Shown piece by piece: positions 1 to 58,829 of a DNA stretch of 58,829 nt (the stretch's first letter is position 1; each line of letters opens with the position of its first letter). The position numbers were made by a program, and so were the translations under genes. The stretch covers positions 1-58,829 of IMG/VR virus record IMGVR_UViG_3300050139_000074. The stretch is one strand, 5' to 3'. The notes beneath the pieces were generated by a model. It was not told the origin of the DNA. It saw only the letters and a list, made by a program, of their open reading frames with translations, and made no database searches. The DNA comes from a virus.

Positions 1-788
1 GTGACTGCTCCGATCTCAGGGGTAACTGCTCCGGTCTCAGGGGTAACTGCTCCGGTCTCAGGGGTAACTGCTCCGGTCTCAGTGGTAACTGCTCCGGTCT
101 CAGTGGTGACTGCTCCGGTCTCAGTGGTGACTGCTCCGATCTCAGTGGTAACTGCTCCGGTCTCAGTGGTGACTGCTCCGATCTCAGGGGTAACTGCTCC
201 GATCTCAGGGGTAACGTCTCCGATCTCAGTGGTAACTGCTCCGGTCTCAGGGGTGACTGCTCCGATCTCAGGGGTGACTGCTCCGATCTCAGGGGTGACT
301 GCTCCGATCTCAGGGGTAACTGCTCCGGTCTCAGTGGTGACTGCTCCGGTCTCAGTGGTGACTGCTCCGATCTCAGGGGTGACTGCTCCGGTCTCAGGGG
401 TGACTGCTCCGGTCTCAGGGGTGACTGCTCCGATCTCAGTGGTAACTGCTCCGGTCTCAGGGGTGACTGCTCCGGTCTCAGGGGTGACTGCTCCGGTCTC
501 AGGGGTGACTGCTCCGATCTCAGGGGTAACTGCTCCGGTCTCAGGGGTAACTGCTCCGGTCTCAGGGGTAACTGCTCCGGTCTCAGGGGTAACTGCTCCG
601 GTCTCAGGGGTAACTGCTCCGGTCTCAGTGGTAACTGCTCCGGTCTCAGTGGTGACTGCTCCGATCTCAGTGGTAACTGCTCCGGTCTCAGTGGTGACTG
701 CTCCGATCTCAGGGGTGACTTAGACGAAGCTGAAATCACAGATGAAGAAAGAGCGCAGGGGGTAAATATAAATGAACTTATCCAATAG
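1..788 (+). CDS. Heptapeptide-repeat protein, C-terminal part (gene broken by contig end)
   Basis: The coding frame starts at base 3 (GAC TGC TCC ...). It gives 34 tandem copies of a seven-residue unit [D/N]-C-S-[D/G]-L-[S/R]-G, followed by a unique acidic tail of about 23 residues (LDEAEITDEE...) and a TAG at 786-788. The frame matches the repeat protein that starts at 58316 and runs off the other end, so these are two parts of one gene. Joined through the 6-base terminal overlap it would be about 431 residues with about 54 units. I do not recognise a function. The regular Gly/Leu/Cys/Ser pattern suggests a repetitive beta-type fold, loosely like pentapeptide-repeat proteins but with period seven. 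It overlaps the next gene by 17 bases. The parallel frame with MTAPVSGV repeats is a shadow. Confidence 0.75.
   Translation, partial: DCSDLRGNCSGLRGNCSGLRGNCSGLSGNCSGLSGDCSGLSGDCSDLSGNCSGLSGDCSDLRGNCSDLRGNVSDLSGNCSGLRGDCSDLRGDCSDLRGDCSDLRGNCSGLSGDCSGLSGDCSDLRGDCSGLRGDCSGLRGDCSDLSGNCSGLRGDCSGLRGDCSGLRGDCSDLRGNCSGLRGNCSGLRGNCSGLRGNCSGLRGNCSGLSGNCSGLSGDCSDLSGNCSGLSGDCSDLRGDLDEAEITDEERAQGVNINELIQ
3..716 (+). repeat. 21-bp tandem repeat array (left part)
   Basis: There are 34 direct copies of a 21-base unit without spacers. Units differ almost only at three positions: GGT/GAT, AGT/AGG and GAC/AAC. Each change alters an amino acid. One unit has TGC replaced by GTC (Cys to Val, near 215). Not a CRISPR: there are no spacers and the frame is coding. 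Confidence 0.95.
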
Positions 789-1110
789 GCAGCAAGATGT
801 GGTAACCATGTGTGACTCAGCACTCAAAGAGGCAGGGCTCAATACTTACACCATGCTCGGTGAGACGTGCGGCTTCTTGGGTGCCCAGGCTCTCGAAGCG
901 GTGCAGATCGCAAAGGACCTGATGACCAAGGTCCAGGCAAAGGGCGAGAACGAGAAGAGGAACCCTGAGCTGGTGGGGCTGAGAACCCACCTCGTACCCG
1001 GTTGCGATGCAACTACGTTACTTATGGCCCAGATGTGCCTGGATGAGCTCATCGATCTTCGAGAGACGGGGATGACGCCCCGCATCGATCCTACGGAGCT
1101 GCAGAAGTGA
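772..1110 (+). CDS. Hypothetical protein (112 aa)
   Basis: The ATG at 772 lies inside the end of the repeat-protein gene, and the stop is at 1108-1110, overlapping the GTG start of the DNA polymerase gene (GTGA). The product is soluble and predicted helical, with MNLSNRQQDVV at the N-terminus and no motif I recognise. Tight coupling to the polymerase suggests a role in early replication metabolism, but this is inference from position only. Confidence 0.7.
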   Translation: MNLSNRQQDVVTMCDSALKEAGLNTYTMLGETCGFLGAQALEAVQIAKDLMTKVQAKGENEKRNPELVGLRTHLVPGCDATTLLMAQMCLDELIDLRETGMTPRIDPTELQK

Positions 1111-3158
1111 AGATTCTAACTATCGACTTCGAAACGTTTTGGGATATTGACTTCACCCTGTCCAAGATGACGACCGAGGCGTACGTAAGAGACGCCAGGT
1201 TCAAGACTCATCTTGTAGGTGTGAAGAACGGAGATGCCGAGACGGTGATCCTCCCTGCCAACAGGATACAGGAGATCTTTAACAAGATTGATTGGGCAGA
1301 TACCGCCGTACTCTGCCAGCACGCACACTTCGACGGCCTGATCCTCTCCCACGGCTACGACGTTCATCCTGCGTTCTTCTTTGACACGCTCTCAATGTTT
1401 CGGCACCTTTACCCGGCGGAGAGTGCCTCGCTTATGAACCAGACCAAAGTTTTAGGGCTGCCGGCCAAGGGCAATGGCTATGACATTGTGAACACGAAAG
1501 GACTTACCTCCTTCACACCACAAGAATACGCCTCCTGCGCGGCATACTGCAAACTGGACTGTGATCTCACTTGGCGCATCTTTAATATCCTGAAGCCGAA
1601 GTTCCCCGTCTCCGAGATGCGCCTCATCGACATGACAGTGAAGATGTTCACAGACCCGATTCTCAGGCTAAACGTGGATCTGCTGGAAGAAGCGAAGCAG
1701 GATGAGATAGAGACTAAGAGGCTGCTTATGGAGCGAGTGGCGCACGACAAGGATGCGCTTGCTTCAAACCCTAAGTTTGCCAACATCCTCATGTCCATAG
1801 GCATTGATCCACCAAAGAAGATCAGCCCCGCCGCTATAAAGAACGGCAAGGTGCATGCGGAGACCGCAGGAGAGGCACCTATTGGCATCATCCCCACGTT
1901 GACCAAAAAAGAAAAAGCGGAGTACTTGGAGCGCGAAGGGGTTCCGCACGTCTCTGATGTTTGGGCCTACGCCTTCGGGAAGAGCGACGAAGAGTTTAAA
2001 CGGATGCTGGAGCATGATGACCCCACGGTCAGGGCACTCGTAGAGGCCAGGATGGGGGTGAAGTCTACCATCAAGAGCACCAGGACCGAAAGGTTCCTCG
2101 GTATCGCGGAGCGGGGGCCATGGCCGGTGTACTTAAACTATGCTGGTGCCCACACGCTCCGTTGGAGCGGCGGTGATAAGATGAACCCACAAAACCTCGT
2201 GCGTGGTAGTAAGCTCCGGGAATCCATTGAGGCTCCTGAAGGGCATGTCATAGTGGTGCGCGACCTCTCAGCAATCGAAGCGAGGGTACTTGCCTGGCTC
2301 TCGGGGCAGGAGGATGTTGTCGAGACTTTCCGACGCGGGGAGGACGTATACTGTGACATGTTCAAGTCGATCTCGGGGCGGGTAATAACCAAGAAAGATG
2401 CAAGTGAACGCTTCCTCGGAAAAGTTGTGGTTCTCGGTTGCGGATACCAGATGTCGTGGAAAAAGCTGCAGTCCATGCTCCGCATCGGGATGCTTGGAGA
2501 CTCAGGAAGAATCCTCGGGGAAGACATCGCCACCCCACTCGGAGTGAACCTTCAAGGGTTCCTCCACCGCTTCGCCGGGTACGTACAAGAGACATTACCC
2601 CCCGGTGGGGATCTCGCCGCCCATGCACTCCATTGTGCCTGTACTGAGGCAATTATCCGAGCGTTCAGAGACAATAAGCCGATGATCCCCCGTTTCTGGC
2701 AGACCTGCCAGGAGAGCTTTGAGTACATACTCCGAGGGGAGTCGTTCAAGTTTGGTCGGTTCGGAGTAGTAGAGACTTGCCGGGAAGGACTCAAGCTGCC
2801 GTCGGGTATGCTCCTGAGATACACCGAGCTTGAGTGCAAGGCCGAGGGCCGGCGCAAGGAGTACTCCATCCTGAAGAATCGTAGGAAGGGGGAACGGGGT
2901 AAAATGTATGGGGGTCTCTGCTGCGAGAACATCGTCCAGAGGCTATCCAGGGACATCATCGCGGAGCACATGCTGAAGATCGGCGCCCGGTATCATGTCG
3001 CTACCATGACCCACGATGAGATTGTCTGTGTCGTTCCAGAAGAACGGGCAGAGGAGTGCTACTCCTTCATGGGGGTGGTTATGGCTACACCACCAGTATG
3101 GGCTCCTGACCTGCCTCTGGGTTCCGAGGGGGGCTTCGCCCGGAACTACAGCAAATGA
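1107..3158 (+). CDS. Family A DNA polymerase with 3'-5' exonuclease domain
   Basis: Replicative phage DNA polymerase of 683 residues. The N-terminal DEDD exonuclease shows motif Exo I (ILTIDFET, D7 and E9) and an Exo II-like segment (HAHFDGLIL). The polymerase domain has motif A (VVRDLSAIEARVLAWLSG), motif B (K-x3-R-x-LGKVVVLGCGYQM) and motif C (MTHDEIVCV). These are the signature elements of pol I-type enzymes, and the length fits phage members lacking the 5' nuclease domain. It starts with GTG overlapping the previous stop (GTGA) and ends in ATGA overlap with the next small gene. It heads the replication block with the primase-helicase (14022) and nucleases. Confidence 0.93.
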   Translation: MKILTIDFETFWDIDFTLSKMTTEAYVRDARFKTHLVGVKNGDAETVILPANRIQEIFNKIDWADTAVLCQHAHFDGLILSHGYDVHPAFFFDTLSMFRHLYPAESASLMNQTKVLGLPAKGNGYDIVNTKGLTSFTPQEYASCAAYCKLDCDLTWRIFNILKPKFPVSEMRLIDMTVKMFTDPILRLNVDLLEEAKQDEIETKRLLMERVAHDKDALASNPKFANILMSIGIDPPKKISPAAIKNGKVHAETAGEAPIGIIPTLTKKEKAEYLEREGVPHVSDVWAYAFGKSDEEFKRMLEHDDPTVRALVEARMGVKSTIKSTRTERFLGIAERGPWPVYLNYAGAHTLRWSGGDKMNPQNLVRGSKLRESIEAPEGHVIVVRDLSAIEARVLAWLSGQEDVVETFRRGEDVYCDMFKSISGRVITKKDASERFLGKVVVLGCGYQMSWKKLQSMLRIGMLGDSGRILGEDIATPLGVNLQGFLHRFAGYVQETLPPGGDLAAHALHCACTEAIIRAFRDNKPMIPRFWQTCQESFEYILRGESFKFGRFGVVETCREGLKLPSGMLLRYTELECKAEGRRKEYSILKNRRKGERGKMYGGLCCENIVQRLSRDIIAEHMLKIGARYHVATMTHDEIVCVVPEERAEECYSFMGVVMATPPVWAPDLPLGSEGGFARNYSK

Positions 3159-3322
3159 TCAAACACATAACCCCAGAGCATCCTGATTTCGCAGAGATCT
3201 CGAAGCGGGTAACGCCAATTGAGAAGGTGAAAGATCAGGCGTTCCCGAGAACAAGTATCTACGCTGAACGTGAGACGTCGTATAAGACAAGTCGGACTCG
3301 GAAGGAGACGATGGACAAATGA
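3155..3322 (+). CDS. Small protein (55 aa)
   Basis: A short frame beginning MIKHITPEHPDF and ending KETMDK. It begins with ATGA overlapping the polymerase stop and ends with ATGA overlapping the next start, so it fills the gap between two good genes exactly. It is basic and rich in charged residues, with no domain recognised. The double 4-base overlap is the main support for it being real. Confidence 0.6.
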   Translation: MIKHITPEHPDFAEISKRVTPIEKVKDQAFPRTSIYAERETSYKTSRTRKETMDK

Positions 3323-3804
3323 GAGAAGAAGACGAGAGCAGGGAGACTGATGCCTCCGAGGAGGAAACCAGAATGAGCTACAAATGTGACCACAAATGGA
3401 ATCTATTAGATCGAAATAGTGGTGGATATTATTACTGTTTCAATTGCAATTCTGTGATATCTTTAGAAGTTTATCAAACAATAGCCGGACTAGAACAAGA
3501 GCGCAACGAAGCCAAAGCGGAAATCGTAGCACTAAAGGAAATTATAAGAGCCTCGTGTTCTGATATGGATGGTTTCGACAGGCGATATAAATGCCCTGAA
3601 ATTCGCGAGTCAAAAGCGGAAATAGATCGGCTGAATAACAAGATCAAGGAATTGATCGAGGAGGCTGACGACGATCATAATGAGATAGAGCGGCTGAAAG
3701 ACGGCCTGATAAAGATCAAATTAATCACTGAACCGCGCGATAGTGGCATGGGGCATGAATGTTGGAAGATTGCCAAATCCGCATTAGAAAGGGAACCAGA
3801 ATGA
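3319..3804 (+). CDS. Coiled-coil protein with N-terminal zinc-finger-like motif
   Basis: 161 residues. A Cys/His cluster near residues 23-45 (CDHKW ... YYCFNCN) could bind zinc. From about residue 55 on the sequence is heptad-rich and strongly charged (EQERNEAKAEIVALKEI, EIDRLNNKIKELIEE), typical of a long coiled coil. A later internal start at MSYKCDHK (residue 19) is possible. Base composition is more A-rich than its neighbours, as for the next gene. Function unknown. Confidence 0.7.
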   Translation: MREEDESRETDASEEETRMSYKCDHKWNLLDRNSGGYYYCFNCNSVISLEVYQTIAGLEQERNEAKAEIVALKEIIRASCSDMDGFDRRYKCPEIRESKAEIDRLNNKIKELIEEADDDHNEIERLKDGLIKIKLITEPRDSGMGHECWKIAKSALEREPE

Positions 3805-4181
3805 AGGAGATATTTGATAAACTGGTTAAAATTGCAAAAGAACAAATCGAATCATTTAATGATTTTTCAGACGACAGGGCGATAGTGTGGGCTGATAATG
3901 AAATTAAGCGGCTTCAATCAGAAATATCCGCCCTTAAACTCCAACTCTCAGGCCGCACCTATTGCCGTAGCGATGAGGCGGTAGAAGCGAGGTGTAAGGA
4001 GTTGGAAATCAGATGCACCAACTTCCAGATCGGTTTGCAAGCCATTGCAAGCGATGCCGAAACTCAAACATCTGGAAACTTTGGGATGAAACGACTTTCA
4101 GGGTATGCTCGGGATACATTGTCCGGCGTTGAATGGCTTGATGAGTTCGCAAAAGATGAGCCTCCTACGAGGCGCAGTTGA
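3801..4181 (+). CDS. Hypothetical coiled-coil protein (126 aa)
   Basis: The start was chosen at ATG 3801, which overlaps the previous stop (ATGA); a longer frame from 3759 is less likely. The product has a helical charged N-terminus (MKEIFDKLVKIAKEQIESF), a heptad segment (DNEIKRLQSEISALKLQL) and three further cysteines. The N-terminal composition resembles the preceding gene, suggesting the two arrived together. Function not recognised. Confidence 0.65.
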   Translation: MKEIFDKLVKIAKEQIESFNDFSDDRAIVWADNEIKRLQSEISALKLQLSGRTYCRSDEAVEARCKELEIRCTNFQIGLQAIASDAETQTSGNFGMKRLSGYARDTLSGVEWLDEFAKDEPPTRRS

Positions 4182-4260
4182 CCTCACGCCTCCGGCGCCG
4201 TGCCGTCGTTACACGCCTGGAGATCCTGGGTTCGAAGAATTGAGAAAATTATACGCTTGA
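4155..4260 (+). CDS. Possible very small protein (34 aa)
   Basis: A frame beginning MSLLRGAVDLTPPAP and ending LRKLYA. It starts inside the end of the preceding gene and ends in a TGATG overlap with another short frame. Support is only this coupling geometry; it may be a translational relay or spurious. Confidence 0.3.
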
Positions 4261-4373
4261 TGTGGGAAATTTGTTCAATCTGTGGGTGCGCCTACTATGC
4301 ACAAAAAGAGACGTACGAAAATAAAATTCTTGACAAACAAAGATTATGTGTTAAGCTCTTTACAAATAGCTAA
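4260..4373 (+). CDS. Possible small Cys-rich protein (37 aa)
   Basis: The frame starts MWEICSICGCAYYAQ with a compact CxxCxC cluster that could bind a metal. It starts in a TGATG overlap with the preceding short frame, and its stop lies in the ribosome binding site (TAAGGAGG) of the next gene. The end of the frame runs through the promoter at 4330-4357, which makes the call uncertain. Confidence 0.35.
   Translation: MWEICSICGCAYYAQKETYENKILDKQRLCVKLFTNS
4330..4357 (+). promoter_or_regulatory. Sigma-70-like promoter with extended -10 (P1)
   Basis: TTGACA at 4330-4335, 16-base spacer ending in TGT, then TAAGCT at 4352-4357. The same arrangement recurs at 9394 and 58259, with conserved flanks (TGTGTTAAGCTCTT then TAACA or TACA), so this is a repeated phage promoter. 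It drives the block starting at 4386. Confidence 0.7.
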
Positions 4374-4385
4374 GGAGGTTCCAGC

Positions 4386-4574
4386 ATGCGACTGACCAAT
4401 GAGAGACGAGATTTAATCCTGAACAAGACAGTAATGGGCGTTTTTGCATCGCCCAGACCCAAGAAGACCCTGCTCCAAGTTGACGAAGAGATTGATGCCG
4501 CGCGGCGCCGGCAGCGTGAGGCGAGGAAGCGCGTTCAGGCGCTGGACCGGCCTGAGAAGAAGGGGATGATATGA
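4386..4574 (+). CDS. Small basic protein (62 aa)
   Basis: First gene after promoter P1, with a strong ribosome binding site (AAGGAGG) ending 7 bases before the ATG. The second half is highly basic and helical (DAARRRQREARKRVQALD), which could contact nucleic acid. It ends in ATGA overlap with the next gene. No family recognised. Confidence 0.65.
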   Translation: MRLTNERRDLILNKTVMGVFASPRPKKTLLQVDEEIDAARRRQREARKRVQALDRPEKKGMI

Positions 4575-4765
4575 CTGAGCAAGAGGCACGGCAAAAATGG
4601 TGCCCAGTGGTACGCGCCGAGAACGGTGCCAATCACACCTTTAAAATGGGTGCTAATGAGTGCTACAATGTATGCATAGGTTCTCGGTGTATGATGTGGC
4701 GTGATCAAGGCTCAGGGCCAAGAGGAAGTGGATATTGCGGTCTCGGGGGCAAACCATGCTTCTAG
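4571..4765 (+). CDS. Small Cys-rich phage protein (64 aa)
   Basis: Contains a CIGSRCMMW motif followed by a GYCGLGGKP segment; together with two upstream cysteines these could form a zinc site. I recognise this CIGS-x-CMxW ... GxCGLxG pattern from many short phage proteins of unknown function. The ATG overlaps the previous stop (ATGA), and the next gene starts inside its end. Confidence 0.7.
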   Translation: MTEQEARQKWCPVVRAENGANHTFKMGANECYNVCIGSRCMMWRDQGSGPRGSGYCGLGGKPCF

Positions 4766-5760
4766 CCCACCAACTTACATATCCACAGCTCTTCACCGCG
4801 AAAGAAGGTGTCATCACACGACAAGGGGTAATGATCGGTGGCCCGGACCGGCGGCACATGGACGACAACGCCGTGGTTAGCTGGCTATACTGGCAGAAGG
4901 AGGTTCAATTCGCTTCCAAAGAGCCGGGAGTCGTGCCGCCTGCAGTAATGAGTTACTTCCAGACAACGAAGCATCTTAATCGACCGCCCAAGGAGGGTGA
5001 TGTGAATATTTTAGGAACTGATGTGGTTGAAGATGCTATTATCATCGCGACAAAGGTGCAGTTCACCCCGCCCAGATTCACCTGGAGCCACACAGCTCTC
5101 GACCAGTTCCTCAACACTTGTGCCTGTCAGGCTGCCGCCGCACGGTATTTCAAGACAACCTCGTATCAGGAGACTGAAGCGACTCGTGCAGGGAACCGAG
5201 TGCATAAGGCAGGCGAGAACTACCTGCTGAACCCCACCGCAGCAACTGCGGCGATCCTCGACAAGGAGGAGCCAAGGGCGAGGAAGTTTGATGATCTCAT
5301 TCTCAATGCTGCGGCAAAGTCCGGCGGGGTGCTCCTCGTTGAGAAGAAGATGTGCGTCAATGATAAGTGGAAGACTACCGGGTACTTCGACTCCGATGCT
5401 TGGGGCCGGGGTGCTGCTGACATCGCGCTCATTCGTGGAGAGACTGCCAACATATGGGACAGGAAGACTGGGAAGCGGAAGGATAACCCACAGCAGCTCC
5501 GTCTGATGATTCTCTTCCTCGCCCTCTACTACCCCGAAGTGCAGGAGTTCAACGCGGCGAATATCTGGTATAAATATGCAGAGCCGGTGCAGAGCATACC
5601 GACTGTGAAACGGGCAGAGGTTAAAGAGATCTTCCTTGAGACGCGGAGCATGATCGAGAGAGTACAGGCGATGTGGGAGTCAGGTAACTTCCCGGCGAGG
5701 AAGTCGGGTCTCTGCCGTCAGTGGTGCCCTAATACTGCTTGCCCACATTGCGGGCGTTAA
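4756..5760 (+). CDS. PD-(D/E)XK nuclease of the Cas4/RecB type
   Basis: 334 residues from the ATG at 4756 (a TTG start at 4735 is less likely). After about 95 unassigned N-terminal residues comes the nuclease: FTWSHTALDQFLNTC, then GNRVHKAGE (the G-x2-H motif), VLLVEKKM, GRGAADIALI and IWDRKTGK (acidic metal-binding residues followed by the D/E-x-K-type motif). Near the end a cysteine pattern (CRQWCPNTACPHCG) joins the early cysteines and could hold an iron-sulphur cluster as in Cas4/AddB-like enzymes. Probably processes DNA ends during replication or recombination. The extra N-terminal region may be a separate domain. Confidence 0.8.
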   Translation: MLLAHQLTYPQLFTAKEGVITRQGVMIGGPDRRHMDDNAVVSWLYWQKEVQFASKEPGVVPPAVMSYFQTTKHLNRPPKEGDVNILGTDVVEDAIIIATKVQFTPPRFTWSHTALDQFLNTCACQAAAARYFKTTSYQETEATRAGNRVHKAGENYLLNPTAATAAILDKEEPRARKFDDLILNAAAKSGGVLLVEKKMCVNDKWKTTGYFDSDAWGRGAADIALIRGETANIWDRKTGKRKDNPQQLRLMILFLALYYPEVQEFNAANIWYKYAEPVQSIPTVKRAEVKEIFLETRSMIERVQAMWESGNFPARKSGLCRQWCPNTACPHCGR

Positions 5761-5788
5761 ATTAATTTAACAAAAAAGGAGCTGAAAC

Positions 5789-5983
5789 ATGGAAATGGAA
5801 GCCGTTGAATCAAGTGCAGTGTCGGCCTTGGGGTACGAGGCCGATTCAGAGGTAATGATGGTCCGGTTCAAAACAGGGGCTGAGTACGTCTATCACAACG
5901 TATCATATGATACGTTCATGTCCATCAAGGAGTCTCCGTCCATCGGGCGGGAGATCCGGAAATATCAAGGGGTGGCTGCGTGA
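5789..5983 (+). CDS. KTSC-domain protein (64 aa)
   Basis: The pattern VESSAVSALGYEADSEVMMV, then F-x-T-G-A-E-Y-V-Y-H-N-V and a final IGREIRK, fits the small KTSC domain: Ser near the start, an aromatic-rich beta sheet, and S-x-G near the end. The domain is found alone or fused in bacteria and phages; its role is not established, though an RNA- or nuclease-related function has been proposed. A good AAGGAG ribosome site precedes the ATG. The end overlaps the GTG of the kinase gene. Confidence 0.75.
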   Translation: MEMEAVESSAVSALGYEADSEVMMVRFKTGAEYVYHNVSYDTFMSIKESPSIGREIRKYQGVAA

Positions 5984-6612
5984 GTAAAAAAATACTCGGG
6001 ATTTCAGGCAAGAGTGCATCCGGAAAAACGACCTTCGCAGACCTCGCAGTCAAAGAGTTCGGAGCGACGAAGCTCTCATTCGCTTCTTCCTTGAAAGAGG
6101 AAGTCGCAGAGTTTCTCACGAAGCTCAACGTGGCCTTTGAGCCACGGCATCTGTACGGCGTAGCCGCTGATAAAGAAGAGACGTTCATCGTGGAGCATAT
6201 TGAGTGGGAGCATCTAACTACACATGAATTCTCCGCAATCTTCCTGCACCACATGGGGCTCTCGCCCTGTGGCAAGTTCCTCACGCTGTCCTACCGGCCC
6301 CTGATGCAGCTCTGGGGCACTGAGTACCGGAGAGCGCAGGACGAGGCGTACTGGACGAAAAAGTTGCAGGAGAGGGTGCAGAGCACCGAGGGGCTCATAG
6401 TCATCGATGACGTACGGTTCAAGGACGAGGCCGAGATGATCGAGGATCTGGGCGGCACGCTGATACGGGCGGTACGAGGCCATTCGGCCTCTAAGCATCC
6501 TTCGGAGACGGAGCTTGACGACTTCAACCGGTTCTCCTGGATGATTCAGAATTACGAAGGGCTACCTGAGTACGAGAACGAGGTACGCCGCTGTTTGGGG
6601 GTTCTTTTATGA
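5980..6612 (+). CDS. Deoxynucleoside monophosphate kinase
   Basis: Phosphorylates dNMPs to dNDPs to supply phage DNA synthesis. The P-loop is at residues 7-18 (GISGKSASGKTT). LSFASSLKEE, the segment MQLWGTEYRRAQDEAYW, the Walker B-like LIVIDDVRFKDEAE and HPSETELD match the T4 gp1-type dNMP kinase family in order and spacing. The length (210 residues) is within the usual range. The GTG start overlaps the previous stop (GTGA), and the end overlaps the next ATG (ATGA). Confidence 0.85.
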   Translation: MSKKILGISGKSASGKTTFADLAVKEFGATKLSFASSLKEEVAEFLTKLNVAFEPRHLYGVAADKEETFIVEHIEWEHLTTHEFSAIFLHHMGLSPCGKFLTLSYRPLMQLWGTEYRRAQDEAYWTKKLQERVQSTEGLIVIDDVRFKDEAEMIEDLGGTLIRAVRGHSASKHPSETELDDFNRFSWMIQNYEGLPEYENEVRRCLGVLL

Positions 6613-6866
6613 TTGAGGTATTTGCGCGGCGGGCCACTCTCGCAGTGATGTGGGGCACTGTTCTTTACTTCGGAATCGCCCTGATTGCACATGTACATAA
6701 TAAGAATGTCGCTGAGAAGTTTCACAAGTGCGCTAGGTGCCACTGTACCCCTCCGCCGATTATAAAGAACCTGCGTGAGTACAAGGACGTACACCAGAAT
6801 AGGCAGACGGACAGGGCGAGGCAGATTAGGGTGCAGCTCGCAGAGCTCGTGAGGGTGCCAGAATGA
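6609..6866 (+). CDS. Small membrane-anchored protein (85 aa)
   Basis: One predicted transmembrane helix near residues 8-27 (LAVMWGTVLYFGIALIAHV), followed by a short CARCHC cysteine cluster and a basic cytoplasmic-type tail. It is linked by ATGA overlaps on both sides to the dNMP kinase and the VRR-NUC nuclease. The function is not recognised; the metal-binding-like CxxCxC just after the helix is notable. Confidence 0.7.
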   Translation: MIEVFARRATLAVMWGTVLYFGIALIAHVHNKNVAEKFHKCARCHCTPPPIIKNLREYKDVHQNRQTDRARQIRVQLAELVRVPE

Positions 6867-7231
6867 CCCCAGAGAACAAGGTTAAGAAAGAGCTTCGCTC
6901 GTACCTCGAAATGATAGGCTGCGTCCCGGCAGCAAAGGCAGCACTTGCTACGCCGGCGCATCACGGTTGGTACTTCATGCCTGTGCCTATGGGCACAGGA
7001 GTCTCCGGTATCGCCGACGTCATCGGGCACTATAAGGGGCGGCTCTTCGCCATCGAGGTCAAGGCACCGGGTCGGCGAGGGCAGAAAGATCGAGGCATGT
7101 CAGCACATCAGGTGCATCAGTCCGAGGCGATACGCCTCTCCGGCGGGTTCTCTATGTGCTTCGACGGCGGTGAGTATGATTGGTTGGTTTTGAAGAATTG
7201 GGTGAAAGAGGTAACGCATGCTAACCGATGA
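6863..7231 (+). CDS. VRR-NUC domain nuclease
   Basis: A 122-residue stand-alone VRR-NUC (PD-(D/E)XK superfamily) protein. The core shows PVPMGTGVSGIADVIG (the catalytic Asp in G-x-A-D), LFAIEVKAPGRRG (E-V-K metal-binding pair) and the helix SAHQVHQSEAIRLSGG. Phage members are typically about 100-130 residues and are proposed to cut branched or structured DNA. The gene is coupled to its neighbours by ATGA at the start and an overlap of 14 bases at the end. Confidence 0.85.
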   Translation: MTPENKVKKELRSYLEMIGCVPAAKAALATPAHHGWYFMPVPMGTGVSGIADVIGHYKGRLFAIEVKAPGRRGQKDRGMSAHQVHQSEAIRLSGGFSMCFDGGEYDWLVLKNWVKEVTHANR

Positions 7232-7418
7232 ACAGATTTTACAGATCGCTAAAGAGAAGGCGTTCTTTGGCCTTTACGGACCGAGTAAACTTACTGATAT
7301 GGGTAACGGCACCGCGAGGTGCCTACCATCTACTACGTTGACCTACTTTGGCGAGAATCTTCTATGCTTCGCTAGAGCTGTTGAGCTATTGGTGATGAAG
7401 GAGGTTGATCATGTGTGA
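7218..7418 (+). CDS. Hypothetical protein (66 aa)
   Basis: Starts at ATG 7218 within the end of the VRR-NUC gene. Begins MLTDEQILQIAKEKAFF. Helical, with no motif recognised. The downstream AAGGAGG within its end (7399-7405) serves the next tiny frame. Confidence 0.6.
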   Translation: MLTDEQILQIAKEKAFFGLYGPSKLTDMGNGTARCLPSTTLTYFGENLLCFARAVELLVMKEVDHV

Positions 7419-7446
7419 TATGATGTTGTACGGGTGCGGTTCTTGA
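7411..7446 (+). CDS. Possible 11-residue minigene
   Basis: ATG TGT GAT ... TGA encodes MCDMMLYGCGS. It has the best ribosome binding site in the neighbourhood (AAGGAGG at 7399-7405, 5 bases before the ATG), and its stop overlaps a TTG start (TTGA) of the next frame. It may act only to deliver ribosomes to the next gene. Confidence 0.35.
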   Translation: MCDMMLYGCGS

Positions 7447-7616
7447 AGGGAATTTATGTTGATCCTTTTGCGCAGCCCTACATCCCACCTGAAGGCACGA
7501 AACCTCCTGCGGAGCAGATTGCCTTTGCCCGCTACGTCAATGCGAAGCAAGCGTTCAAGTCGCTCACTTGGGAGGAGTACGATTATAATCCTGAGAACCG
7601 AAAGGCGAAGTCTTGA
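7443..7616 (+). CDS. Hypothetical protein (57 aa), TTG start
   Basis: Start chosen at TTG 7443 because it overlaps the stop of the minigene (TTGA), the same device used at the gene's end to reach the helicase (TTG at 7613). A GTG at 7434 is the alternative. It includes DPFAQPYIPPEG and a helical AFARYVNAKQAFKSLTWEEY. No family recognised. Confidence 0.5.
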   Translation: MKGIYVDPFAQPYIPPEGTKPPAEQIAFARYVNAKQAFKSLTWEEYDYNPENRKAKS

Positions 7617-9166
7617 AACCACGCATCGTAAACTCCCACATAATATTCACCCCAGAAGATCCTTCCAAGATCGCGCCGGTGTTCCCAGGGTTCAAGCAAG
7701 CCATGATCGACGGGCAACTCGTCTGCGCCGTGCCTTTGGGTCTCGACTCTGCCAGGCTTCTCCGCAACATGGGTATTGAGGCACCAAGTCCTATTCGTAC
7801 CGAATATAATTGGCCGATCATACCGGGCCGTACACCCGGCTGGTGGCAGATAGATACTGCGGAGTTCTTCACACTGAACCCGAGATGCTTCTGCCTCAAT
7901 CTCCCGAGAACTCGGAAGACCCACTCATCGCTCTGGGCCGTAGATTACATGCAGAAGATTGGCAAAATGGGTCGCTGTCTCGTAGTGGCGCCGCTCTCCA
8001 CATTGGAGATTGTCTGGACCGACACCATCTTTATGAATTTCCCTGGTAAGAGTTACGCTGTACTCCACGGCTCCGCCGAACGGCGCCGGATGCTCCTCGC
8101 GCAGAAACATGACATCTATGTCATTAACCATGACGGGGTTGAGATACTGCAAGAAGAGCTGAGGGCGCGGAACGACATCACGCATATCGTGATCGACGAG
8201 ATCAGGACGTTTTTTAACGCAAAAACTAAGCGGTGGAAGGCGATGAAGTCCATCATTACACCTGAACGTACTGCATGGGGCTTAACCGGGACTCCAACAC
8301 CCAACGCTCCGACTGATGCTTACGGACAGATGAAACTAATCAAGCCTGAGAACTTCAACGGTTCATTCACAGCGTTCAAGAACACGATAATGCAGCAGTT
8401 CGGAACTTATAGTTGGGTGCCCCGCAGAGGGCATGAAGAGATCGTCAAGAAGTGCCTCTCGCCGGCAATACGTTTCGACCGGTCGGTTGTCACCGATATG
8501 GAGCCACAGCTCATTGAGCGGCATGTTGAGCTGACTGCGCAGCAGCGGCATCATCTTACTGAGTTGCTAAAGCAATCGGTGACAGAGATCAACGGTTCGG
8601 TGGTCACCGCTGTTAATGCTGCGGTGCTCATCCAGAAGGTCGTGCAGGCATCGCTCGGCTGCGTTTACGGTGCCGGCGGAGAGATACTTGAGATTGACTT
8701 TGGGCCACGGCTCAGAGTCGTGGAGGATCTGATCACTGAGAACTCAGATTCCAAGACTATCGTGTTCTTCCCTTTTACCGGAGCTCTTGATGCCTTCGCT
8801 CGCGAACTCAGCAAGAAGTGGAGCGTCGCCGTCGTTGACGGTGGAGTGAGCGCAGGGAAACGGACTCAGATCTTCGGCGACTTCCAGAAGAAAAAAGACC
8901 CTCATATCCTTGTGGCGCATCCAGGGTGCATGGCGCACGGATTGGAGCTCACCGCCGCGAGCCTCATCATCTGGGCAGCGCCGTGTAATAACTCCGACAC
9001 TTACGGGCAGGCGTGCGCACGCATCGACGGTGGTGGGCAGAAACTCAGGATCGACATCTGCCATGTGTCGGCTACGCCGACCGAGCGTAGGATCTATGCC
9101 GCAGTGCGTGAGAAGAGAAAGCTGCAAGATGTGGTGTGCGAATTATTTATGAAGAAAGGAAATTAA
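7613..9166 (+). CDS. SNF2-like superfamily 2 helicase
   Basis: 517 residues. ATPase domain 1 has a degenerate P-loop (NLPRTRKTHSSL), VVAPLSTLEIVW (motif Ia), IDEIRTFFNAKTKRW (DEAH-box position) and GLTGTPTPN (motif III). Domain 2 carries KTIVFFPFTGALDAF, DGGVSAGKRTQIFGDFQ, LVAHPGCMAHGLELTAAS and the arginine-finger region QACARIDGGGQ. This is the usual order for phage SNF2-type helicases acting in replication or recombination. It starts with TTG overlapping the previous stop (TTGA). The unusual P-loop lacks the common GxGKT glycines but keeps K-T. Confidence 0.82.
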   Translation: MKPRIVNSHIIFTPEDPSKIAPVFPGFKQAMIDGQLVCAVPLGLDSARLLRNMGIEAPSPIRTEYNWPIIPGRTPGWWQIDTAEFFTLNPRCFCLNLPRTRKTHSSLWAVDYMQKIGKMGRCLVVAPLSTLEIVWTDTIFMNFPGKSYAVLHGSAERRRMLLAQKHDIYVINHDGVEILQEELRARNDITHIVIDEIRTFFNAKTKRWKAMKSIITPERTAWGLTGTPTPNAPTDAYGQMKLIKPENFNGSFTAFKNTIMQQFGTYSWVPRRGHEEIVKKCLSPAIRFDRSVVTDMEPQLIERHVELTAQQRHHLTELLKQSVTEINGSVVTAVNAAVLIQKVVQASLGCVYGAGGEILEIDFGPRLRVVEDLITENSDSKTIVFFPFTGALDAFARELSKKWSVAVVDGGVSAGKRTQIFGDFQKKKDPHILVAHPGCMAHGLELTAASLIIWAAPCNNSDTYGQACARIDGGGQKLRIDICHVSATPTERRIYAAVREKRKLQDVVCELFMKKGN

Positions 9167-9167
9167 G

Positions 9168-9383
9168 ATGCGCCCAGACCCAGTAACCAGAAACACCATC
9201 CAAGCGAAGCACGACAGAACCAAGTTCATGCTGGAGAAACTCGAAGATCAACTTGCCAGAGGCTCCATTGAGAACTCATTTGCCGAAGAGTTCGTACCGT
9301 CGATCAGAGCGCGACTCAACGCAGGTATCCCATTGACCGACAAGCAACTTTCCACACTTGAAAAATTATTTGAGCAGTACTGA
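9168..9383 (+). CDS. Hypothetical protein (71 aa)
   Basis: Follows the helicase by one base, with GAAAGGAAATTAAG as ribosome site. Helical and charged (MLEKLEDQLARGS ... LTDKQLSTLEKLFEQY). No motif recognised. Promoter P2 follows immediately. Confidence 0.6.
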   Translation: MRPDPVTRNTIQAKHDRTKFMLEKLEDQLARGSIENSFAEEFVPSIRARLNAGIPLTDKQLSTLEKLFEQY

Positions 9384-9393
9384 AATAAAACTC

Positions 9394-9421
9394 TTGACAA
9401 CAATGAAATATGTGTTAAGCT
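9394..9421 (+). promoter_or_regulatory. Sigma-70-like promoter with extended -10 (P2)
   Basis: TTGACA at 9394-9399, 16-base spacer ending TGT, TAAGCT at 9416-9421. Near-identical architecture to 4330 and 58259. It lies in the short gap before the Gp157-like gene. Confidence 0.7.
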
Positions 9422-9446
9422 CTTAACAGAAAGAGGGGTGCATACC

Positions 9447-10085
9447 ATGAGCGACAATATCCTGCAAAGAATTATAGACAAGCATATAGAAGATCGTGAA
9501 GTACTGAAGGCGCTCCGAGCGAAACATGCCGAGGAGCTCAGAGGCATTGAGGAACTCCAGAAGAAGCGGGAGGATGCGCTTCTTGAACGCGGAGACATGA
9601 CATGCTTCGCATACCTGACTGACCTCTTCGTCAACGGGCGTGACGGCAAGGCCGAGGTGAAGAAGAAGGAAGAGAGCATATCGCTCGACCAGAGCCGTAT
9701 TGAGTCCTGGCTCCTGAAGATGCTCAAGGGTGTGGGCGAGGGCATCAAGACTGAGTTCGGCACAGTGTACCTGACTCGGAAGGAAAGCGTCACTTGTAGT
9801 GACTTTGAAATCTTTTTTAACCAGAATCTTTTAGCCCCAGCGGTGAGTGCTTTAAAAACTGAGTTGGAAGCGCGGGCCGGGATAGAACTCCCGCCCAAAG
9901 AATTTTTTATGCTCCAGCTCTTCGAGCATATGCACCTGGAGTTTCTGACGAAGGCTGTCAGGAAAGAATCAGTTCTTGAACTGATGGGTGAGCAGAGCAA
10001 AGATGGGTCGAGACCGAACCCGCCGCCGGCGGGGGTCAATTATGTCGCCGTTCAGACCGTTGGGGTGAGGAAGGCTACGAAATAA
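9447..10085 (+). CDS. Siphovirus Gp157-like protein
   Basis: 212 residues from ATG 9447. The central R-x-E-S-W-L-L-K-M-L ... G-I-K-T-E-F-G-T-V-Y-L-T segment and the C-terminal PPAGVNYVAVQTVGVRKA match the Gp157 family pattern. Family members are encoded beside ssDNA-annealing or ssDNA-binding proteins in many phages, as here (10319). The N-terminal half is a charged coiled coil. An earlier GTG at 9438 in frame is less likely given the spacing to the AGAGGGG ribosome site. Exact biochemical role unknown. Confidence 0.75.
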   Translation: MSDNILQRIIDKHIEDREVLKALRAKHAEELRGIEELQKKREDALLERGDMTCFAYLTDLFVNGRDGKAEVKKKEESISLDQSRIESWLLKMLKGVGEGIKTEFGTVYLTRKESVTCSDFEIFFNQNLLAPAVSALKTELEARAGIELPPKEFFMLQLFEHMHLEFLTKAVRKESVLELMGEQSKDGSRPNPPPAGVNYVAVQTVGVRKATK

Positions 10086-10318
10086 GTTTGGGTAGTCGGA
10101 GCTGCCATCCGACATAAGAGACACCTTAGGGAGCGCGACCCTACGTGAAAAAGAATGTGGCAACGGGGCGTAATAACTGGTCTGATATTATATGCGCTGC
10201 ACTGCGCGGCGACCCGAGAGGGTTGGATTCACACTGGTGAACTACGTAGTAGGAAGAGATCTCGCCCGATTCAAAATTAACCCGCCCTTCGGGGCCAAAC
10301 CACAAAGGAGAAACAACC
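10086..10318 (+). other. Structured leader region before the 10319 gene
   Basis: The gap contains a chain of perfect short hairpins: GTCGGA/TCCGAC (7-base loop, about 10096-10114), TAGGG/CCCTA (7-base loop), TTCAC/GTGAA (4-base loop) and a UUCG tetraloop hairpin GCCC-TTCG-GGGC just before the AAAGGAG ribosome site. Two tiny coupled frames are threaded through it (listed separately). I do not recognise a riboswitch class. Confidence 0.4.
10145..10240 (+). CDS. Possible small protein (31 aa)
   Basis: A GTG-start frame beginning MKKNVATGRNNWSDIICAAL. It ends with TGA overlapping the GTG of the next tiny frame (GTGA), the coupling used repeatedly in this unit. There is no clear ribosome site unless the TAGGG/CCCTA hairpin brings AGGGAG close. 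Low confidence. Confidence 0.3.
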   Translation: MKKNVATGRNNWSDIICAALRGDPRGLDSHW

Positions 10319-10326
10319 ATGAGTAA
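10237..10326 (+). CDS. Possible small protein (29 aa)
   Basis: A GTG-start frame beginning MNYVVGRDLARFKINPPFG, basic. It is coupled to the previous frame (GTGA) and runs 8 bases into the next gene (CATGAGTAA). It could be a real small peptide or a translational relay into the 10319 gene. Confidence 0.3.
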   Translation: MNYVVGRDLARFKINPPFGAKPQRRNNHE

Positions 10327-11350
10327 CTTTCCAGCATTACCTGATCAAGCACCAAACTATGCAGCACTTCTGTCCCAGTGCCCAGAACTCGCCCTGATTA
10401 ATCAGGAAGCGGCAGCAGGCATCTCTTCTGGCATGCCGCCATCAATCGTCGCGGCCAAGGGTCGTTTCACCATCAAAGAAGGTGGCGTTGATACTCAGTG
10501 CGTCTTCCCCGCAGTTACACCGCAGGGCGAACCCCACCCCGCCGCAGGCCAGCCGATCTCAGTTCTGAGCACCGTGATTCTCAGAGGTAAGCCTGCCATT
10601 GAGAAGGTCTGGTACGCAACCAAGTTTACACCTGGGCAGGAACCACAGTCGCCCGACTGCTTCAGTCTCGATGGTGTTAAACCTGACAGTGCGGCGAAGA
10701 TCAAGCAGTGTGAAGCCTGCGCCGGTTGTGCCCAAAACGTCTTCGGCTCGGGAGCGAACCAGGACGGTACGCCGTCCAAAGGCAAGGCATGTACTGACCG
10801 CAAGATCATCGCCATCTACGCTCAGAACTCGGTCTACCGCTTCGCAATTCCGCCGGCGTCACTCGGCAACTTCGTTTCATATACGAAACAGCTTGATGCT
10901 CGGGGCATACATCTGCCTACCGTCATTACCGCCATTGGCTTCGACGCTGTTGACGACTATAAACTCACCTTTAATTTCGGCGGCATGCTGGCCGAGGCAG
11001 CAGTAACCGGTAAGATCCTCCCGATGCTTACTTCCCCAGAGGTGATGGAGATCGTTGGGGCAAAACCATCTGCGACGCAGATCGCACATACTCCGGTGAA
11101 CCAGGTAGCTGACCTGGACGCTGCGCGTCAGAAGAAGGAACAGGAGGATGCTGCGGAGAAGAAAGAGAAGGCAGATAAAGCAGCTGCTGCGAAGAAGGCG
11201 AAGGATGATGCGGCTAAGGCGAAGGCAGCTACTACTGCGCAGGGTGATGGTCTCGGTCTCGACATGGGTGCCGCAGATCCTGTGAAGCAGGAAGCAGGTG
11301 CTACCTCCGGTCCTTCGGACGACGAGATCGCCAATCTTTTAGGGTTGTAA
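10319..11350 (+). CDS. Zinc-ribbon protein with acidic tail, putative ssDNA-binding protein
   Basis: 343 residues. The middle carries a clear cysteine set (SPDCFS ... QCEACAGCAQNVFGSG ... KGKACTDRK) likely to bind zinc, inside a predicted beta-rich domain. A long Ala/Lys linker (about residues 265-310) leads to an acidic hydrophobic tip, SDDEIANLLGL, as in single-stranded DNA-binding proteins that use the tip to recruit partners. Position next to Gp157-like and replication genes fits. It starts with MSNFPALP after AAAGGAG. The ssDNA-binding assignment is inference; a different DNA-metabolism role is possible. Confidence 0.5.
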   Translation: MSNFPALPDQAPNYAALLSQCPELALINQEAAAGISSGMPPSIVAAKGRFTIKEGGVDTQCVFPAVTPQGEPHPAAGQPISVLSTVILRGKPAIEKVWYATKFTPGQEPQSPDCFSLDGVKPDSAAKIKQCEACAGCAQNVFGSGANQDGTPSKGKACTDRKIIAIYAQNSVYRFAIPPASLGNFVSYTKQLDARGIHLPTVITAIGFDAVDDYKLTFNFGGMLAEAAVTGKILPMLTSPEVMEIVGAKPSATQIAHTPVNQVADLDAARQKKEQEDAAEKKEKADKAAAAKKAKDDAAKAKAATTAQGDGLGLDMGAADPVKQEAGATSGPSDDEIANLLGL

Positions 11351-11359
11351 AAGCATGAA

Positions 11360-11388
11360 TCTACGCCCCTTATTCCGAGGGGCGTAGA
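11360..11388 (+). terminator. Strong intercistronic hairpin
   Basis: A perfect 11-bp stem (TCTACGCCCCT / AGGGGCGTAGA) with a 7-base loop, placed between the 10319 and 11408 genes. There is no U-tract after it, so it may be an RNA processing or stabilising element rather than a full terminator. Confidence 0.5.
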
Positions 11389-11407
11389 ATCTAAAAGGAG
11401 GCAGCAG

Positions 11408-12310
11408 ATGGAAGAACAAAAACAAAAAATAGCAGTTCTACACCACAACGATGCTGACGGTTTCGGAGCCGCATACGCCTGCCGGAAAGCTCTGAGCGAT
11501 ACCTCGGAGATGATCTACTTGCCGGTGCAGTACGGGCAGGAACCGCCATATGAGGCGCTCCGTGCCTTCACTCCTGAGATGGTCTACATCGTAGACTTCT
11601 CCTACAATCTTGAAACCCTGTTGATGCTTGAGTCAGCCTTCGGAGCCCTTAGGGTCATCGATCACCACAAGACTGCGGAAGAGCCTTTGATGGCGTTCGA
11701 CGCACAGAAAACGAACGAGTTAAGCGGGGTGCTATTTTCGCTCACACGCTCTGGTGCAGTGCTCACCTGGGATTTCTTCGGGGACATACATGGTCTGCAA
11801 GCACCTCCAATCCTTCAGTATGTGCAGGACAGAGACCTCTGGAAGTTCGAACTCCCGGATTCAAAAGCGGTGAATGCGTATATTGCGACTCTTCCGGAAG
11901 AGTTTGAGGCATGGGACAACTTCAACGTGGATGAGGCTGTGCGACAAGGAAATGCAATTCTCGCCTTCCAGAAGCAGCAGATTGAGTGGAGGTTAAAGGA
12001 TGTGGTGGTGCTATACTGGAACTTCTTTGAAGGGGCTTTTCAACGAGGTGAAGGTAGCGGTATTAACCGCACATGTCCTGTACCCTTCGTCAACGCCACA
12101 GACAACATCTCGGAACTCGGAGAGGCAATGTGCTTTGCATACCCCGATGCACCGTTCTCAGTCAGCTACGCTGATCGTCCAGACGGCAAGAGAAGTTACT
12201 CGCTCCGAAGCAGGAACGGTTTTGATGTGAGTGCAGTTGCGAAGGCGTTTGGAGGTGGGGGACACAGCGCCGCCGCAGGATTCACTTTAGCAGCACCAGA
12301 TATTATTTAA
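11408..12310 (+). CDS. DHH-family phosphoesterase
   Basis: 300 residues with the DHH signature order: HHNDADGFGAAYA (motif I), VYIVDFSY (motif II), RVIDHHKT (the DHH motif) and a C-terminal DHHA1-type GGGGHSAAAGF nucleic-acid-binding loop. The family includes RecJ-like exonucleases, nano-RNases/pAp phosphatases and cyclic dinucleotide phosphodiesterases. The size and DHH-DHHA1 layout favour an oligonucleotide or short-substrate phosphodiesterase. In a phage it could recycle nano-RNA or pAp, or remove a signalling nucleotide, but the substrate cannot be told from sequence alone. It has a strong AAAGGAGG ribosome site. Confidence 0.82.
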   Translation: MEEQKQKIAVLHHNDADGFGAAYACRKALSDTSEMIYLPVQYGQEPPYEALRAFTPEMVYIVDFSYNLETLLMLESAFGALRVIDHHKTAEEPLMAFDAQKTNELSGVLFSLTRSGAVLTWDFFGDIHGLQAPPILQYVQDRDLWKFELPDSKAVNAYIATLPEEFEAWDNFNVDEAVRQGNAILAFQKQQIEWRLKDVVVLYWNFFEGAFQRGEGSGINRTCPVPFVNATDNISELGEAMCFAYPDAPFSVSYADRPDGKRSYSLRSRNGFDVSAVAKAFGGGGHSAAAGFTLAAPDII

Positions 12311-12415
12311 CAGTTTGGGGCACGGTTCGGGTAGCGCGTCTAAAGCCTCTGCGTCCGGAAAAACTTAAAGCTGTGAATACCGACCCCAATTCAACTTTTC
12401 AAAAGGACGTAACAA
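12311..12415 (+). other. Intergenic region, possible folded leader
   Basis: TTGGGG near the start can pair with CCCCAA near 12388-12393 to enclose the region, and GC-rich internal segments could fold. No promoter with good match and no convincing gene; two frames under 22 codons are present. AAAAGGACG at the end is the ribosome site for 12416. Confidence 0.3.
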
Positions 12416-12940
12416 ATGTTCAAAACGATCCTAAATAAAGTGCTCGCCCGATGGGTTCCAGATTACGGCTTGATGATGGCACAGCAGAAGATGTTTAACA
12501 AGCTGGAGCGGAGTTGCGTTGACTTCGAATACAGACTTACTGCGGCGCACAATGATTTTAAGAACGGCGTGTCAAAAGAGTTTGACGCATTACAGGCAGA
12601 TTTAGCTCTCCGTGTCAGGAACGACCTCGACAGGGCGGTTACGCATTTACAGGGTCTAAACAATATATCAGATCTCCGTAGTGACATAGTTAATTTTGAG
12701 CTCCGGGTAGACGCCCTTTGCGCGGTCTGTGGTGTCGAAGTAGTAATCAGCATGGGTGAAGTATTTACCAGTGAAATCAGTGAAGAATCGGTGGCGCGTA
12801 TGCAGGCTGCTGCCGCAGTTTGGGAGCTGAAAGCAGAGACCGAGAGAGCGAAGCAGGTTGCGGAACGCCTGAGGGGTACGCTGCTAAAACTTGAAGCAGA
12901 TTTGAGACAGAGGAGCAAAACCAATGAACGAAAAATTTAA
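12416..12940 (+). CDS. Hypothetical coiled-coil protein (174 aa)
   Basis: Almost wholly helical. The C-terminal half (VWELKAETERAKQVAERLRGTLLKLEADL, given here in part) is a coiled coil, and the central LCAVCGVE holds a CxxC pair. It overlaps the next gene by 17 bases. No family recognised. Confidence 0.6.
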   Translation: MFKTILNKVLARWVPDYGLMMAQQKMFNKLERSCVDFEYRLTAAHNDFKNGVSKEFDALQADLALRVRNDLDRAVTHLQGLNNISDLRSDIVNFELRVDALCAVCGVEVVISMGEVFTSEISEESVARMQAAAAVWELKAETERAKQVAERLRGTLLKLEADLRQRSKTNERKI

Positions 12941-13205
12941 AGAACTCGGTCCGCTCCTTGAGAGGGCAGGAATCACCAAAGGTGAAGCCTCGGAGATTTT
13001 CCGAACTTCCCGGCCTACAATATATACGTGGTGTGAAGGACACGGCCCGACGCAGATGATCGTTCAGGACGCTGCTCTCCGTGTGATGTGTGCCATCGGC
13101 AAAGCGTGTGATGCCGGAGCACTGCCTCTGATTGACGTCGAGAAGGATGAGCGGGTAAAGCTCCTCCGCGGGGTACTGCGTACCCACTTGAACAGCGGGA
13201 AATAA
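12924..13205 (+). CDS. Helix-turn-helix protein (93 aa)
   Basis: Residues 16-40 (GITKGEASEIFRTSRPTIYTW) fit a helix-turn-helix of the Cro/C1 or transposase-like type: short helix, turn with G-E-A, recognition helix S-R-P-T-I-Y. A C-terminal helical stretch may dimerise. Likely a DNA-binding regulator acting on phage or host promoters. The start codon lies inside the previous gene. It is followed by a hairpin and then the methyltransferase genes. Confidence 0.65.
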   Translation: MNEKFKELGPLLERAGITKGEASEIFRTSRPTIYTWCEGHGPTQMIVQDAALRVMCAIGKACDAGALPLIDVEKDERVKLLRGVLRTHLNSGK

Positions 13206-13230
13206 ATTCCCTCTTGACACACCTATGGTT

Positions 13231-13252
13231 CGGGAGTACTCATTGACTCCCG
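13231..13252 (+). terminator. Hairpin, possible weak terminator
   Basis: CGGGAGT (13231-13237) pairs perfectly with ACTCCCG (13246-13252) across an 8-base loop, followed by CCTTTCT. A TTGACA at 13213-13218 precedes it but has no good -10. Confidence 0.4.
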
Positions 13253-13290
13253 CCTTTCTGCTATGTCTCTAAACCCTCGGAGGCTTCACT

Positions 13291-18518: not shown

Positions 18519-18524
18519 ATTATT

Positions 18525-58258: not shown

Positions 58259-58286
58259 TTGACAAACAGAGAAGGTGTGTTAAAGT
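58259..58286 (+). promoter_or_regulatory. Sigma-70-like promoter with extended -10 (P3)
   Basis: TTGACA at 58259-58264, 16-base spacer ending TGT, TAAAGT at 58281-58286. It is the third copy of the promoter type at 4330 and 9394 and drives the heptapeptide-repeat gene. Confidence 0.7.
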
Positions 58287-58315
58287 CTTAACAAATACAT
58301 ACTAGGAGGCGTCCG

Positions 58316-58829
58316 ATGAAAAAAGTACTGACAAAGCAGGTTTCAGAGTTGTATCATTTTATAGATGGTGAGCGCGTAGAAGGAGTAAGCTCCGGTCTCA
58401 GTGGTGACTGCTCCGATCTCAGTGGTGACTGCTCCGGTCTCAGTGGTAGCGTCTCCGGTCTCAGTGGTGACTGCTCCGGTCTCAGGGGTGACTGCTCCGG
58501 TCTCAGGGGTGACTGCTCCGGTCTCAGGGGTGACTGCTCCGATCTCAGGGGTGACTGCTCCGATCTCAGGGGTGACTGCTCCGATCTCAGGGGTGACTGC
58601 TCCGATCTCAGTGGTGACTGCTCCGGTCTCAGGGGTAACTGCTCCGGTCTCAGTGGTGACTGCTCCGGTCTCAGGGGTGACTGCTCCGGTCTCAGGGGTG
58701 ACTGCTCCGATCTCAGGGGTAACTGCTCCGGTCTCAGGGGTAACTGCTCCGGTCTCAGGGGTAACTGCTCCGGTCTCAGTGGTAACTGCTCCGGTCTCAG
58801 TGGTGACTGCTCCGGTCTCAGGGGTGACT
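58316..58829 (+). CDS. Heptapeptide-repeat protein, N-terminal part (gene broken by contig end)
   Basis: ATG 58316 after AGGAGG. A unique N-terminus of 23 residues (MKKVLTKQVSELYHFIDGER and three more) leads into one partial and 20 full [D/N]-C-S-[D/G]-L-[S/R]-G units to the contig end, with one Ser-Val variant near 58448. The frame is continuous with base 3 of the window if the two ends are joined by their 6-base overlap. No function known to me. Confidence 0.75.
   Translation, partial: MKKVLTKQVSELYHFIDGERVEGVSSGLSGDCSDLSGDCSGLSGSVSGLSGDCSGLRGDCSGLRGDCSGLRGDCSDLRGDCSDLRGDCSDLRGDCSDLSGDCSGLRGNCSGLSGDCSGLRGDCSGLRGDCSDLRGNCSGLRGNCSGLRGNCSGLSGNCSGLSGDCSGLRGD
58385..58829 (+). repeat. 21-bp tandem repeat array (right part)
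   Basis: 20 complete units plus partial ones, same unit and same three variable positions as the array at 3-716. Confidence 0.95.

Follow-up and report, generated by a model that had tools for sequence, protein, structure and literature searches.

The stretch of DNA analysed here, termed the window, comprises all 58,829 bases of one virus record, which has the IMG/VR class linear. A single reading frame made largely of 21-bp repeat units opens with an ATG at 58316, runs to the right contig end, and goes on from base 3 to a stop codon at 786-788 on the plus strand (Table 1). An earlier, sequence-only reading had placed this gene at 1-788, which agrees with the stop but leaves out the start. 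Tandem Repeats Finder gave a 21-bp period with 93-94% matches in both halves of the array, and the two together contain 54 complete units (34 left and 20 right), in keeping with the array of more than 50 units described before. The promoter upstream is only a candidate, because the scan returned 7 sites in the region against 3.3 in shuffles.

Table 1. Features of the array gene and other parts of the window
Feature	Position	Strand	Basis
Candidate sigma-70-like promoter, TTGACA-16-TAAAGT, directly 5' of the array gene	58259..58286	+	consensus scan, 10/12 matches
Ribosome-binding site AGGAGG, 5' of ATG 58316	58304..58309	+	read from sequence
N-terminal cap, 30 residues, MKKVLTKQVSELYHFIDGERVEGVSSGLSG	58316..58405	+	translation; layout LYH...G common to relatives
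Array 5' part, 20 complete heptapeptide units	58406..58825	+	Tandem Repeats Finder, translation
SVSGLSG unit (array 5' part)	58448-58468	+	
Array 3' part, 34 complete heptapeptide units	3..716	+	Tandem Repeats Finder, translation
NVSDLSG unit (array 3' part)	213-233	+	
C-terminal tail DLDEAEITDEERAQGVNINELIQ and stop	717..788	+	translation; tail kept in relatives
112-aa ORF, overlaps end of array gene	772..1110	+	ORF list
DNA polymerase, next gene in the same direction	1107..3158	+	PHROG 17, E 1.6e-74
2446-aa ORF, largest of the window	18566-25906	-	
Tandem repeats of 16-42 bp inside a 767-aa tail-fibre gene	51053-51374	-	
Stretch with no long ORFs between minus- and plus-strand genes, promoter-like sites facing both ways; perhaps an origin or switch region	56200-56836		

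Besides the 112-aa ORF and the DNA polymerase, the plus-strand genes 3' of the array encode an exonuclease, a helicase, a primase and a methyltransferase, and the minus strand of the window carries the terminase, head protein, connector and tail fibre. The array gene lies in the early replication and recombination region, apart from the virion genes. Among 131 proteins flanking the relatives described below, the commonest families are YqaJ/RecE exonucleases (4-5), Gp157 or Gam-like proteins (3), Erf (2), primases (2) and pentapeptide repeats (2).

The exact overlap of the window ends is only 6 bp (gtgact). Simply abutted, the ends keep the reading frame and the 21-bp phase is off by 6 bp; the only arrangement that brings the repeat into register is one with these 6 bp collapsed. 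The earlier statement that both ends lie in the repeat in matching frame is thus right as to frame, and as to phase only after the collapse. The five right-hand units 15-19 are identical to left-hand units 1-5, with an AGG/AGT mismatch next, near the end; when the halves were shuffled, runs of at least five equal units turned up between them in 43 of 1000 trials. The window ends may overlap by about 120 bp, which is plausible, or may hold two copies of one block. Two other contigs, those of loci L024/L046 and L075/L082 (L numbers denote loci), are split alike, each having the N-terminal half of the gene at one contig end and its C-terminal half at the opposite end, from which we infer that the ends of the window do join, as had been proposed. 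Among the 65 distinct contigs of the profile search described below, 20 have an end at or inside an array compared with 3.2 expected from random breaks (maximum 11 in 20,000 simulations, which set a lower limit of 300 bp on every array). The contig of L059, counted among the 20, ends in the N-cap just 5' of the array. Most likely, the window is a circular or circularly permuted genome that the assembler opened at the array, and what the contig ends cut in two is probably a single early gene of a tailed phage.

A heptapeptide family in phage genomes

A search of phage genomes for the repeat, which the sequence-only reading had proposed, was carried out and found relatives widely. In viral contigs, 14 loci came from a protein search and 70 loci on 65 contigs from a profile search; a sister set of 23 loci, mostly of Val type and common in phages, has the same caps. 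Val-type GDVSGL proteins may also occur in public bacterial records. Two genome contigs carry the family, one from a Patescibacteria assembly (JAGWJP010000006.1, L092) and one from Desulfovibrio sp. (JAJDJN010000001.1, L093); these loci are possibly prophages or phage contigs and could point to hosts. Phage records contained one clear match, the hypothetical protein UOF80481 of MW202691 (Podoviridae sp. ctkAd229), which shares the N-cap, heptads and tail with the window protein but has 12 counted units, and is encoded a few genes 3' of a gene for a putative single-stranded DNA-binding protein. In plasmid records, nothing beyond two weak partial matches turned up.

The counts over the 669 units in 40 blocks are 665 for G at position 1, 619 for D or N at position 2, 655 for C at position 3, 660 for S or T at position 4 and 643 for L at position 6; positions 5 and 7 vary. 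The window protein shows all the family features, namely an LYH...G N-cap, a G[DN]C[ST]xLx array and an acidic tail of the GDLDxCxITDEERxxGxxIxxLI kind. Two or three neighbouring gene copies are present on the contigs of L024, L030, L040, L044, L046, L048 and L074. In one variant a CMxFxKKPTYEEV domain of ~40 residues, perhaps a different binding end, replaces the acidic tail (L035 3926-4783, L075 1-366 and L014 about 3974-4264). We found no description of the heptapeptide repeat family in the literature searched, which covered sources other than subscription journals and preprints, and the arrays represent an unannotated and widespread phage family.

Unit turnover, array age and selection

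In the G-first register, 53 units of the window array show 0 synonymous and 6 non-synonymous changes. The common polymorphisms are D/N, G/D and S/R, and Cys/Val is a two-base change from TGC to GTC in 2 units; these sites, the rare Val units and the lack of synonymous differences are all as the sequence-only reading had them, with one D-to-S change (AGC) to be added. Given the Val-type sister set, the two Val units of the window show the other residue usual at position 3, a predicted core position. The codons for the same residues are mixed in eight other genes of the phage (GGT 30% of Gly, TCC 24% of Ser and CTC 40% of Leu), therefore the uniform codons of the array reflect homogenisation. 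Any two of the three common sites occur in all four allele combinations, and units 25 apart match at 0.67 compared with 0.15 in shuffles, which marks an old block duplication. Taken together, the absence of synonymous variation despite mixed codons, the allele combinations and the lag-25 block bear out the earlier idea that a few unit types have recently expanded and been shuffled. A search for the reverse transcriptase of a diversity-generating retroelement (PF00078) gave no match in the window record, which is possibly incomplete.

For array age and selection, 39 arrays with 8 or more units were compared, 10 near-identical loci having been left out. They range from homogeneous arrays with 0 synonymous events (the window, L004 and L006) to arrays in which nearly all units differ, with 12-16 synonymous events (L003, L008 and L029). 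The sequence-only reading had named many synonymous changes at other loci of the family as evidence against its view; since the last three arrays hold them, uniformity is no rule of the family, and a recent expansion in the window still stands. Because older arrays are rich in synonymous changes, their lack in the window marks a young, homogenised array and is alone no evidence of selection.

Conserved positions are under purifying selection, with dN/dS of 0.22-0.34. This also bears on the idea that the 21-bp repeats work at the DNA level, perhaps as replication-origin iterons, and that the coding frame is incidental. A 21-bp direct repeat does head the replication genes, but the relatives keep the peptide and not the DNA: codons differ between arrays, synonymous changes are many in the older ones, and the N- and C-terminal caps are conserved. 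We regard a role at the DNA level as very improbable.

At positions 2, 5 and 7, the amino-acid excess falls with age, from 3.6 in young arrays through 1.4 in middle ones to 1.2 in old ones. Synonymous events at these positions in young arrays number 4 of 43 compared with 27% expected (P = 0.004; 0.01 without the window), with the caveat that these positions were picked once the data had been seen and that one contig supplied two of the eight young arrays. Over all positions, young arrays show no amino-acid excess (17 of 65 events synonymous, 19.6 expected, P = 0.29). Positive selection read from the window alone was rejected (0 of 6 events synonymous, P = 0.14; 0 of 3, P = 0.38). What is left of the suggestion that selection may be involved is a modest amino-acid excess at positions 2, 5 and 7 in the pooled young arrays, and selection on the units is at most weakly supported.

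Unit number was compared in eleven pairs of related loci, nine of them with near-identical flanks and not independent of one another (Table 2); L055/L062 and L004/L010 have diverged flanks and were left out of the count. Sister phages carry 18, 18 and 13 units (L041, L045 and L050) or 10, 9 and 5 (L059, L063 and L078), and substitutions summed over the nine pairs are 10 amino-acid and 2 synonymous. As a serious caveat, short-read assembly of a repeat longer than the reads could itself produce differences in unit number.

Table 2. Arrays of nine pairs with near-identical flanks
Pair	Flank	Array
L006/L007	0 mismatches in 8099 bp	one amino-acid change
L041/L045	0 mismatches in 6299 bp	one change
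L041/L050	6 mismatches in 4854 bp	18 vs 13 units
L045/L050	3 mismatches in 3210 bp	18 vs 13 units
L041/L042	5 mismatches in 1467 bp	two unit indels and one change
L059/L063	0 mismatches in 4125 bp	10 vs 9 units
L059/L078	2 mismatches in 4125 bp	10 vs 5 units
L063/L078	2 mismatches in 4616 bp	9 vs 5 units
L062/L064	9 mismatches in 3626 bp	two changes

Because near-identical phages differ in units and contigs break so often at the array, copy number looks unstable and assembled lengths unreliable, as had been predicted from the window and is now supported by comparison. The family is a fair candidate for rapid turnover of its units. A stronger claim would be that unit number and order are largely an artefact, by collapse or strain mixing in a repeat longer than the reads, and both the excess of contig ends at the array and the five-unit block common to the two ends of the window fit it. 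However, repeat and caps are complete in many contigs, and the differences between sister phages, inside unchanged flanks, are single substitutions and whole in-frame units. Assembly could lie behind part of the length differences; that it accounts for most of them seems to us rather improbable. Searches with the polymerase, the 112-aa ORF and nucleotides found no sister of the window's own phage to compare: a distant polymerase relative (L117, 36% identity) has no array in the part fetched, the ORF gave only a 16-residue match, and window positions 1-20000 had no nucleotide match in phage records.

Fold, database matches and possible function

A structure prediction, also proposed by the sequence-only reading, was run with AlphaFold on the window part and on L006, and yielded a beta repeat at low confidence (mean pLDDT 60.8 and 62.6), all-beta except for one three-residue helix turn in the window model. 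The window model matched antigen 43 (Z 15.6, rmsd 3.5, 196 aligned) and the L006 model an alginate lyase (Z 9.6, rmsd 3.5, 158 aligned); these are generic beta-helices, and for repeats such matches may mean a common arrangement only. In Foldseek, the L006 model superposed on a predicted phage protein model, DUF7666 (BFVD A0A8S5MQ87), with probability 0.94, TM 0.47 and rmsd 4.6 (rank 37, E 0.19), but at 16% identity; no paper on DUF7666 was found in the literature search. Five-residue strands recur every 14 residues in the L006 model (78, 92, 106 and 120), suggesting two heptads per turn of the predicted solenoid, and the unit-to-unit correlation at lag 2 is weak (z 1.8). A coiled coil was also considered, since the C..L... 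heptad fits a leucine zipper and LPP, tail-needle and S-layer-like chains match weakly, but was rejected on account of the almost invariant Gly at position 1 (665/669 units) and the beta models.

Both parts of the window protein reach the curated cut-off of 22 bits for MSG (PF02349, Major surface glycoprotein), with 76 and 50.4 bits, and 27 of 27 members match at E up to 0.1. MSG proteins are secreted or surface proteins with an export signal, and no signal of that type was found in the window protein, whose hydropathy scan revealed no hydrophobic signal or membrane segment (highest 17-residue value 0.46). Five Val-type members (L094, L096, L097, L100 and L110) had no MSG match, therefore the match tracks the Cys heptad pattern. 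The sequence-only reading had suggested surface variation, which would make the protein part of the virion or of the cell surface, with unit changes that alter binding or evade recognition. Such a protein would suit the concentration of variation at positions 2, 5 and 7, with more amino-acid than silent changes there in pooled young arrays; moreover, PHROG 19577, 'minor head protein', matches the window protein (E 1e-12) and 15 of the 27 members, and Lactobacillus phage tail proteins match weakly at 27-28% identity. However, the window gene sits in the replication module with the virion genes on the opposite strand, its relatives neighbour recombination and replication genes, and hydropathy gives no sign of export or a membrane, so that we consider a place on the surface quite unlikely.

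The beta-roll of grass ice-binding proteins (LbR, PF21300) is also a seven-residue repeat, and it gives weak profile matches over the repeat of the family. True kinship with these ice-recrystallisation-inhibition proteins, with an ice- or surface-binding face, could be read from LbR_Ice_bind matches (E up to 0.1) in 4 of 27 members, among them L001 with 33.3 bits against a curated cut-off of 30, and from a profile match to the solved structure 3ult (E 0.017). The window, however, scores 10.7 bits, far below the cut-off, and is a phage early gene with a Cys core; the match may reflect the heptad pattern only, and V-type members match leucine-zipper models instead. We hold this kinship to be highly doubtful.

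Pentapeptide repeats (PF00805) follow the motif A[DN]LXX. They differ from the heptapeptide family in period (5 vs 7 residues) and motif (A[DN]LXX vs G[DN]C[ST]xLx), and the PF00805 model had no match in the 27 members at E up to 0.1. Nevertheless, the family would resemble PF00805 proteins such as MfpA and Qnr, which are short-repeat beta-solenoids with a core of small residues and Leu, a build only predicted for the family, and often have a helical C-terminal end. On two different phage contigs, a heptapeptide gene is followed, right after its stop codon, by a pentapeptide-repeat gene (L030:8000-8407 and L067:4360-4860), and the two solenoid genes there may share a role. Pentapeptide-repeat proteins are presented as DNA-mimicking solenoids in PMC10886550.

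Among relatives with both termini, 37 of 45 are acidic proteins. Overall, the array gene would seem to encode a soluble cytoplasmic protein composed of a short N-cap, a long beta-solenoid of heptapeptides and an acidic C-terminal tail, whose units are gained, lost and homogenised; we think this somewhat better than an even bet, a judgement that covers fold, location and evolution only. Units would turn over through slippage or unequal recombination in the phage. Cys or Val at position 3 and Leu at position 6 would form the core, leaving positions 2, 5 and 7 exposed and varying, so that turnover could reset both the length of the rod and its exposed surface. By analogy with the pentapeptide-repeat DNA mimics, we tentatively suggest that the acidic rod may act by binding a host DNA-transaction or defence protein early in infection. 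A bolder and rather unlikely extension is an evolvable early rod under diversifying selection, in which turnover of length and of residues 2, 5 and 7 would rapidly keep producing new surfaces that serve as decoys or DNA mimics against the host's defence or DNA-processing proteins, with neither a reverse transcriptase nor a dedicated diversifier.

As an unannotated early-gene family with unstable repeat number, the array family would be a hidden cause of broken phage assemblies and would offer a natural test of phage protein diversity by unit turnover. If it is true that the rod binds host DNA enzymes or defence proteins, the family would be a heptapeptide counterpart to the pentapeptide DNA mimics.
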